Positions 13,651-57,230 of a stretch of DNA of 64,000 bases are shown here, one piece after another. Both the position numbers and the translations under genes were made by a program. Origin of the DNA: Actinomycetota bacterium (GTDB lineage: Bacteria > Actinomycetota > Acidimicrobiia > IMCC26256 > PALSA-610); contig SXHN01000122.1 in assembly GCA_005773635.1 (NCBI GenBank), positions 1-64,000 on the forward strand. The letters run 5' to 3'. The notes below the pieces were generated by a model. The model did not search any database. It was not told the DNA's origin and saw only the letters and a list, made by a program, of their open reading frames with translations. Every line of letters starts with the position of its first letter. The first letter of the stretch is position 1.

Positions 13651-13699
13651 TTTTGCGCGCGCCAGAGCGCCCTTTTGGGCACTCCCAGTGGATCAGAAC
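13651..13699 (+). repeat. 49-bp direct repeat, copy 1, with hairpin core
   Basis: Matches the sequence at 13766-13814 with a handful of substitutions; the copies begin 115 bp apart. The middle holds GCCC-TTTT-GGGC, a short GC hairpin with a T-rich loop. It lies just after the GGDEF-like gene stop and could act as a transcription terminator. Confidence 0.7.
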
Positions 13700-13765: not shown

Positions 13766-13814
13766 TTTTGCGCGCGCCAGTGCGCCCATTCGGGCGCTGC
13801 CAGCGGATCAGAAC
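13766..13814 (+). repeat. 49-bp direct repeat, copy 2, overlapping the CoA-transferase stop
   Basis: Second copy of the 13651-13699 repeat. The hairpin core is stronger here: a perfect 6-bp GCGCCC/GGGCGC stem around ATTC. Its right end overlaps the last codons of the convergent CoA-transferase gene (stop at 13810-13808). The pair therefore fills the convergent gap between two operons. Confidence 0.7.
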
Positions 13815-17908: not shown

Positions 17909-18793
17909 CTAACAGCGGCTTCCAACGACGGCGGCCACCACGTCACCGAATCGCTCCAACATCCCCAAATGACCGAGCTCGGGCCAAATTCTGAGTTGCG
18001 CTCCAGGAATCTTGGCCGCGTACGTGCGCGCGTCATTGCCATTGTTGCGGTCACTGCCTCCGTGGAATACCGACGTCGGGACCAACACGTCTTGTAACGC
18101 AAAGCCAAACGGCATCCACATTGCGATGAGGTCCTGGCCAATGCCATCAGGGCCAGGGCGCAGAGCCTCACATATTTGCGCTTCCAGCATCTCCCGATGC
18201 TCAGCATCATTGAGAATCGTGGCGTCGACGCCGGTACCTACGCCAAGGAACGCAGTTGGCGTCTCTAGAAACGGAGCCATCGTGCGCGCAATCCCTCGCG
18301 TCGCTCGATGAGGTTCTCCGGCGCGGGCCACCTCAGCTGCTGGTCTGCGTTTCGCACCAAGCGCTTCCCATGCGTCGGGGACTTCATCGAGCGGCCCCGG
18401 GCCGCTTACCAATGCGAGACGGGTTATTCGTTTCGGACCCAAGCCGAACGCCGTCGCGACCCCAAACGGACACCCGCCCGACCATGCGATCAAACCCGCG
18501 GTGTCGATTTCAAGGTGGTCGAGCAACCCCGCAACATCGGACGCGCAATCAAGAACGCACCGGCCTTCGTGCGAATCGCTCCCGCCGTATCCCGGTCGGT
18601 CGAAGGTAATTATGCGGAGCTTCGGAGGGAGATCGACGGGGCAGAACAGCCGCGAGCCCGGGGACCCGTGCAATAACAAGACAGGCTGTCCGCCAGGGTC
18701 ACCATGGAGTGCGTAGGCAAGGCGTCGACGAGCGACATCATCGCGATTTCCAGATCCCACGAAGAGGTCGCCTTCGACCATCTCGTGGGCCAC
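17909..18793 (-). CDS. Alpha/beta hydrolase
   Basis: 294 residues from a GTG at 18793, 4 nt after the epimerase stop, so clearly in the same operon. Fold landmarks: [10 protein letters not shown] (oxyanion hole), the DRPGYGGSD strand, the nucleophile elbow AWSGGCPFG (Ser, with Ala instead of the first Gly of GxSxG), a late acidic residue in [10 protein letters not shown] and the catalytic histidine in ELGHLGML. This fits a soluble serine hydrolase of the epoxide-hydrolase/haloperoxidase-like group. Its place between pccB and the epimerase suggests a CoA-ester or lactone side reaction, but no substrate can be named. Confidence 0.88.
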
Positions 18794-19199: not shown

Positions 19200-19289
19200 G
19201 CCTGCGAGTGTAGAGAAACGCGGTTCAGGGTTGTGCAAGCACGCCGCTATCCGTAGTGTGACCACAATTCCCAGGCAAGGAGCATCGAC

Positions 19290-23127: not shown

Positions 23128-23173
23128 GCGGTCCCACAGAGGCCGCGCAACCCGCCAGATCGTGGGACCACCC
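23128..23173 (+). repeat. 46-bp dispersed intergenic element, copy A
   Basis: One of four copies in the window (A, B here; C, D at 34345 and 34418). It begins GCGGTCCCAC and ends GTGGGACCACCC, so 8-bp arms GGTCCCAC and GTGGGACC form a perfect inverted repeat around a GC-rich middle. Copy B differs from A by a single base. It lies just after the PhyH stop. Confidence 0.85.
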
Positions 23174-23200
23174 GGGATGAGACTTGACACGACGGCGGCC

Positions 23201-23246
23201 GCGGTCCCACAGAGGCCGCGCAAGCCGCCAGATCGTGGGACCACCC
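23201..23246 (+). repeat. 46-bp dispersed intergenic element, copy B
   Basis: Starts exactly 73 bp after copy A, separated by a 27-bp spacer that is not itself repeated at this locus. The inverted arms are intact. It sits about 90 bp upstream of the thiolase start, so it lies in the thiolase 5' region or promoter zone. Confidence 0.85.
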
Positions 23247-34284: not shown

Positions 34285-34344
34285 CGTAACCGAGCGATAG
34301 GACAACGCACTTGGCCCCAAGCCCCGGCGCACCCATCCACCCCC

Positions 34345-34390
34345 GCGGTCCCACACACACCGCGCAAACCACCAGATCGTGTGACCACCC
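34345..34390 (+). repeat. 46-bp dispersed intergenic element, copy C
   Basis: Third copy of the element seen at 23128. The core is identical to copy D. Relative to A/B a few bases differ, and the right arm becomes GTGTGACC, giving one mismatch in the inverted repeat. It lies between the SRP RNA gene and dnaX. Confidence 0.85.
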
Positions 34391-34417
34391 AAGCCCCGGC
34401 GCACCCATCCACCCCCC

Positions 34418-34463
34418 GCGGTCCCACACACACCGCGCAAACCACCAGATCGTGTGACCACCC
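34418..34463 (+). repeat. 46-bp dispersed intergenic element, copy D
   Basis: Starts exactly 73 bp after copy C. Here the 27-bp spacer is also repeated before copy C and, partly, after copy D, so the whole 73-bp unit has been tandemly duplicated at this locus. Confidence 0.85.
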
Positions 34464-34489
34464 CGAGCTCCGGCGCACCCAGCCACCGC

Positions 34490-34608
34490 TCAGGAGGCTC
34501 GCCCAGGCAACCCGGCGGCACCCGAGAGTTTCCGCTGAGAGCTGCTTGCTTCCGCATCTGACTCGGTTCACGGACTCCCGTCGCGCCGGACCCGGGCGAA
34601 CCACCTCA
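34490..34608 (-). ncRNA. ffs: Signal recognition particle RNA (4.5S, small bacterial type)
   Basis: Read on the minus strand, it holds the conserved SRP core GTCAGATGCGGAAGCAAGCA, with the GGAA tetraloop and the asymmetric-loop AGCAG. Compared with the E. coli core the stem is U-G-C/G-C-A in place of U-C-C/G-G-A, a compensated pair. A distal 12-bp pairing of GGTTCGCCCGGG (about 34592-34603) with CCTGGGCGAGCC closes the hairpin. Location directly upstream of dnaX is classic for ffs. Ends are approximate to within about 5 bases. Confidence 0.85.
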
Positions 34609-53024: not shown

Positions 53025-53100
53025 GCGCTCGTAGCTCAATGGATAGAGCATCTGGCTACGGACCAGAAGGTTGGGAGTTCGACTCTCTCCGAGCGCGCCA
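53025..53100 (+). tRNA. tRNA-Arg (anticodon ACG)
   Basis: Acceptor stem GCGCTCG/CGAGCGC, D-arm with AGCTCAATGGATAGAGC, anticodon stem TCTGG/CCAGA around CTACGGA (anticodon ACG), T-arm GGGAGTTCGACTCTC, discriminator G53097, CCA encoded at 53098-53100. An exact copy of its 3' part is found at 57187, so it is the attachment site of the island that follows. Confidence 0.97.
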
Positions 53101-53106
53101 CACAAA
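53063..53106 (+). other. attL: Left attachment-type repeat (3' part of tRNA-Arg)
   Basis: 44 bp from the 3' half of the anticodon stem to 6 bp beyond CCA. It is identical at every base to 57187-57230, and the flanking bases differ on both sides. An identity block ending just beyond a tRNA 3' end is the normal footprint of tyrosine-integrase attachment sites. Confidence 0.88.
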
Positions 53107-57186: not shown

Positions 57187-57230
57187 CCAGAAGGTTGGGA
57201 GTTCGACTCTCTCCGAGCGCGCCACACAAA
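57187..57230 (+). other. attR: Right attachment-type repeat: 44-bp copy of the tRNA-Arg 3' end
   Basis: Exact duplicate of 53063-53106, including the T-arm, the acceptor 3' strand, CCA and 6 bp beyond. It is not a working tRNA, since the 5' half is absent. It marks the right edge of a 4,124-bp island (distance between the two repeat starts). The next 171 bp (57231-57401) contain nothing I can assign. Confidence 0.88.

Follow-up and report, generated by a model that had tools for sequence, protein, structure and literature searches.

In the REP/RAYT system, the gene of a DNA-cutting enzyme is flanked by the palindrome that is cognate to it, and the palindromes of paralogous enzymes differ (PMC2817692, PMC3733652). 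Palindromic sites are also known for AbiEi, the antitoxin of type IV toxin-antitoxin systems: the characterised protein binds an inverted repeat at its own promoter, TGTTGCTTTTA-N27-TAAAAGCAACA, with 11-bp arms 27 bp apart (PMC3985639), as well as related sites at other positions of its element (PMC11062541). The MTES_1575 domain has been named merely as a novel Vsr-type nuclease (PMC3710099). Our search of the openly accessible literature returned no role for nucleases combining AbiEi_4 with REase_MTES_1575/DUF559 nor any description of palindromes linked to DUF559/MTES_1575 nucleases. The repeat described here was likewise not found described, and the initial annotation of this DNA had not recognised it as a described family. 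This element is probably the scattered and mostly gene-less part of a mobile system formed by such a nuclease and its palindrome, with the 40-bp core as the cognate site of a protein encoded elsewhere in the genome, on contig C51.

The window, that is the whole 64,000-nucleotide stretch that was analysed, is part of contig C122 of a 3.56-Mb draft genome (G000; 125 contigs, 95% complete) and carries four copies of the element on the plus strand. Copies A (23130-23169) and B (23203-23242) are each 40 bp long, differ at a single core position and are separated by a linker of 33 bp (23170-23202); copy A begins 8 bp past the stop codon of the upstream gene. Copies C (34347-34386) and D (34420-34459), also of 40 bp, are identical and separated by another 33-bp linker (34387-34419), which is homologous to linkers in other arrays. 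This second array lies between ffs (34498-34597) and the start of dnaX, both on the minus strand. In all four copies, CGC precedes and ACC follows the core, giving a 46-bp unit (34344-34389 for copy C). The initial annotation had reported two identical copies 73 bp apart at 34345 and the same element, with the same step, at 23128/23201; coordinates and steps agree with ours, identity between C and D extending over 51 bp, and shuffled windows gave a chance expectation of zero for these repeats. It had further noted that the 27-bp spacer is duplicated at 34345 and unrelated at 23128. Indeed, the former recurs at 34316-34344 and 34388-34416, with a degraded version at 34462-34490, and the 23128 spacer has no detectable relation to the linkers of the family (z -0.5).

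Throughout the genome, 42 places match the element with three mismatches or fewer while the reversed pattern, used as a control, matches none, and a 47-position profile built from 33 distinct copies detects 55 copies at E<=0.01. These ca. 55 copies fall into about 30 intergenic loci, 18 of which are arrays of two to four units that are always arranged head to tail. Nineteen of the 25 spacings between neighbours are exactly 73 bp, the others being 75 bp (two), 72 bp (two), 71 bp and 81 bp (one each). The genome-wide search suggested with the initial annotation has therefore produced a strong peak at 73 bp, and neither of the outcomes that would have spoken against a functional array, mostly single copies at random spacing or an element confined to the two window loci, was seen. 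Outside this genome the element appears absent: the congener described below and 56 further genomes from the order contain no copy, bar one weak partial match, and an exact pattern scan of named genomes gave none.

The initial annotation had regarded the 73-bp period as unexplained by copying of the whole unit. At genome scale this no longer holds, since linkers, although fast-changing, are homologous in 14 of the 18 arrays, where the repeated unit is 73 bp (40-bp core plus 33-bp linker), and copying explains most of the period. The exceptions are the 23128 array and two or three others; at 23128, L001 and largely L020 the linker is unrelated to those of other arrays and is still 33 bp long. 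A fixed helical phasing, proposed earlier on the ground that 73 bp is close to seven turns, is not needed, as related families use 51, 61-66, 68, 71 and 75 bp. Signatures of tandem duplication in situ are carried by the array flanks at L012, L018, L020 and L032. These signatures and the head-to-tail arrays of one to four units are what would be expected of a neutral MIRU/VNTR-like repeat, arisen by chance between genes and grown by slippage with no dedicated enzyme. The MIRU and other actinobacterial intergenic repeats are similarly made of tandem units of tens of bases located between genes, but here there is a palindromic core, a cognate nuclease and a period that is uniform within the family. 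Slippage moreover leaves unexplained both the dispersal to about 30 loci, with conserved cores beside diverged linkers, and the association with nuclease genes in dozens of genomes (see below), so that this reading is considered improbable. Nor do the linkers make the arrays CRISPR-like: in place of unique spacers, homologous or identical sequences recur within a locus and from one locus to another.

The family core reads GGTC[C/A]CACANNNGCCGCGCA[A/T]NCCGCCAGAT[C/T]GTG[G/T]GACC, with nearly invariant 8-bp arms that are 24 bp apart. According to ORF-based gene calls, most copies occur 6-40 bp past a stop codon and beside unrelated genes, the gaps being convergent or co-directional, and none of the loci was seen in a clearly divergent gap. 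This position, together with the ability of the 8-bp arms to pair in many copies, could suit a transcription terminator or a hairpin at mRNA 3' ends. The middle arm pair (positions 5 and 36) is however mismatched in 20 of the 33 distinct copies, the loop would be of 24 bases, no T run follows, and a 34345-type copy folds no better than its shuffles. Among the copies of this genome, compensatory changes at positions 5/36 never rise above shuffles, and some of the gaps of the congener that are orthologous to element loci hold no palindrome. Terminators or 3'-end hairpins are consequently the least probable of the readings weighed here. The check for a conserved RNA structure that had been recommended was likewise negative in this genome, in which no covariation was found although a related family of the congener does covary.

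At position 5 of the half-site the choice is between C and A in both arms alike, which suggests that a protein reads the two arms independently. In the absence of compensatory changes the arms resemble DNA half-sites, GGTC[C/A]CAC, and not an RNA stem. A protein-binding site is thus the best reading of the arms. Of the two options raised by the initial annotation, protein binding is favoured by these features and by a predicted cognate AbiEi-like DNA-binding protein, whereas this genome is unlikely to form a cruciform, or an RNA hairpin, from the element.

The candidate protein is encoded by the C51 gene, which has arrays of the 40-bp-core element on both sides. Its 316-aa product is predicted to consist of an AbiEi-like winged-helix domain at the N-terminus and a PD-(D/E)XK nuclease domain of Vsr/DUF559 type at the C-terminus. 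Among 20 members of this protein family, profile matches were obtained for AbiEi_4 in 15, REase_MTES_1575 in 18 and DUF559 in 11, and PADLOC AbiEi models match all 20. The residues of the catalytic motif are kept, the conserved positions being E215, D246, E257, H264, D274 and R277. By sequence profile, the nearest solved structures are the endonuclease-like 3hrl, proteins of AbiEi/AbiGI type and the mobile intron nuclease 3r3p.

A comparable arrangement is found in a genome of another genus (G002), where all three copies of a 40-bp GGTCCC...GGGACC element surround a single gene that is homologous to C51. Overall, 29 homologues of the nuclease occur in 13 of 14 family genomes. When the 400 bp before each gene were compared with the 400 bp after it, using mismatched pairs as the null and a 99% threshold, 23 of 28 testable loci shared a repeat across the gene, against 0/26 for control windows 950-1400 bp away. 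In an independent set of 29 further genomes of the phylum, 19/29 loci exceeded the 99% level and none of the 25 matched controls did. Nuclease gene and flanking repeat are associated in both sets. The remaining loci (5/28 and 10/29) have no shared flanking repeat above threshold; divergence or short flanks account for some of these, and others are perhaps truly bare. AbiEi_4 combined with REase_MTES_1575/DUF559 was detected in 104 of 246 genomes sampled across the phylum, often in several copies. Plasmid records yielded no close relative.

The shared repeats are mostly palindromes of 40-50 bp, each gene having a different one, and the association is specific as judged by their termini. Flanks with palindromes of the form GTC[C/A]C...G[T/G]GAC belong to the six proteins nearest to the C51 protein, itself included, and to none of the others among the 29. 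The formal odds of such a match are 1 in 475,020 assuming independent assignments, a value that overstates independence because the six proteins are mutually related, though they come from five genomes. The same half-site position also alternates between C and A in the elements of C91, a nuclease of the congener, and in genome G001. Other nuclease loci have periods of 51, 61, 62, 63, 66 and 71 bp, and a third paralogue (C59, L225) is accompanied by an element of its own, repeated at steps of 64-65 bp. Nuclease and palindrome are very probably cognate. In some homologues (L215, L214), the flanking palindrome overlaps the end of the gene, so that the final residues of the nuclease are encoded within it.

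These features bring the system close to REP/RAYT and REPINs: in both, short GC-rich imperfect palindromes are found at gene 3' ends, are species-specific, flank the gene of a dedicated enzyme and differ between paralogues. The copies might accordingly be REP-like and owe their movement to a RAYT-type (Y1, HUH) transposase, and their size, palindromic form, copy number, distance of a few tens of bases from gene 3' ends and intergenic placement in convergent or co-directional gaps (ORF-based) all match REPs (PMC3733652). The enzyme nevertheless differs, being an AbiEi winged helix with a Vsr-like PD-(D/E)XK nuclease in place of the Y1 HUH transposase. Matches to the Y1 transposase (Y1_Tnp, PF01797) number zero in this genome (95% complete) and in the congener (98%), and one of 14 family genomes has it; in place of the transposase linkage that was to be looked for, the element flanks the gene of a different nuclease. 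The elements are also longer (40-50 bp) and form head-to-tail arrays, and head-to-tail dimers are rare in REPs (PMC3733652) but the rule here. Beside the stem there is no clear GTAG or CGTC tag; GTGG, which is listed as a degenerate form of the REP tetranucleotide (PMC3733652), occurs on the reverse strand, with its GG within the stem. The system resembles REP/RAYT in its working and is set apart from it by its enzyme, and mobilisation by a RAYT-type transposase, already disfavoured, is highly improbable.

A further possibility is that the palindromes are only operators of an AbiEi-like autoregulator or antitoxin, the flanking copies controlling the gene and the scattered ones being by-products of local duplication or recombination, or a dispersed regulon, with the nuclease domain uninvolved in spread. 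The match of all 20 proteins to AbiEi models speaks for it, as do the geometry that the element shares with the inverted repeats of AbiEi own promoters (PMC3985639), 8-bp arms 24 bp apart flanking a predicted AbiEi-like gene, and the existence of related AbiEi sites elsewhere (PMC11062541). Yet copies also lie downstream of the nuclease gene, the scattered ones are near gene 3' ends and not at promoters, with no clearly divergent gap, and ca. 55 copies beside unrelated housekeeping genes point to spread rather than to a regulon. Operators alone are therefore an unlikely explanation. Compared with AbiEi antitoxins, with which it has in common the N-terminal winged helix matching AbiEi models and inverted-repeat sites with widely spaced arms, the present protein is fused to a nuclease, and its candidate sites occur on both sides of the gene and dispersed over the genome.

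Comparison with a congener (G004, 98% complete; its dnaX locus is identical over 2,607 bases to that of the public draft JANYBW01, Actinomycetes bacterium isolate 336R_metabinner_10, to which it corresponds) shows that nuclease genes are present or absent at orthologous sites. By DnaX, the next named relative is an Acidimicrobiia bacterium. Two nuclease loci of the congener, C91 and C65, can be aligned through both flanks to gaps L027 and L031 of the present genome, which contain only two-copy arrays. Since no protein is closer to the C51 protein than that of C91 (50%), L027 looks like a gene-less form of the same element; at L031 the palindrome differs in type from that of the congener gene, which indicates a shared insertion site rather than a simple loss of the gene. 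Conversely, the C51 site in G004 has no nuclease gene and is occupied by a palindrome of the type flanking another nuclease of that genome (C16). Two further nuclease pairs of the two genomes are orthologous. Such presence in one lineage and absence at the orthologous site of the other (C51; C91 and C65) is shared with Vsr-like EDxHD homing endonucleases (e.g. 3r3p), to which the nuclease domain has a weak profile similarity and with which it has in common the conserved E, D, E, H and D; unlike these, no intron is involved, and the palindromes are found with the gene and also, in many copies, by themselves.

An arm search in G004 revealed a family of near-perfect palindromes of 40-50 bp, TGTCCCAC...GTGGGACA, flanked by CCCTG/CAGGG, one copy of which lies in the dnaX-ffs gap orthologous to that of the window copies. 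A second family, GGTCC...GGACC, is 40 bp long and likewise arranged head to tail, in arrays whose steps are 75, 68, 63 and 53 bp. Another dispersed repeat of the congener, GTCAGTCGACTCGCC...CGGGACGCTCCCT, is located at L170 (~19205-19250), at L178 (~18670-18730) and at L078, downstream of a palindrome; it occupies gaps orthologous to the 23128 array of the window and to L003. The near-perfect palindromes of G004 (L076-L090) display strong compensatory changes in the middle of each arm, of which the family of the present genome has none.

How the palindrome might have spread can be outlined as follows. The winged helix would bind the two GGTC[C/A]CAC half-sites, and the nuclease would cut DNA either at such sites or close to them, or else at gene ends that are unoccupied. 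With a copy bearing the element as template, repair would then spread the palindrome and sometimes the gene too, tandem 73-bp arrays presumably forming later by duplication between direct repeats. Copies may have accumulated at gene 3' ends because insertions there do little harm. The chances that the nuclease itself drives the spread are put somewhat short of even. The compensatory changes in the G004 stems are easier to reconcile with a hairpin intermediate than with simple binding to a double-stranded site, and another transposase acting in trans may copy the palindrome instead of break repair. In more general terms, we tentatively suggest, with slightly less assurance, that AbiEi-Vsr fusions and their cognate palindromes are a separate selfish class that is common in Actinobacteria: by break-and-copy repair, the nuclease would propagate the 40-50 bp palindrome that it binds, either together with its gene or alone, and REP-like families would arise without any transposase. 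If so, this would explain where REP-like repeats come from in genomes devoid of RAYT transposases, and tiny palindromes would have a second, unrelated way of spreading; the cognate palindrome would also be the predicted DNA target of each such nuclease.

A second palindromic family is found in the window, with two plus-strand copies (TTTTGCGCGCG...GGATCAGAA; 13651-13699 and 13766-13814) that lie 115 bp apart within one convergent gene gap. It comprises eight copies in this genome and none in the congener, and flanks a second nuclease gene, a paralogue on contig C45 (L232), with three copies upstream, 73 bp apart, and one near the 3' end. Finally, a 44-bp sequence made up of the 3' part of tRNA-Arg(acg) and its flank is repeated exactly, 4.1 kb apart, at 53063-53106 and 57187-57230. 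Sulfatase-like and acyltransferase-like genes, with no obvious integrase, are located in between, and the pair resembles the two ends of a tRNA-integrated element.
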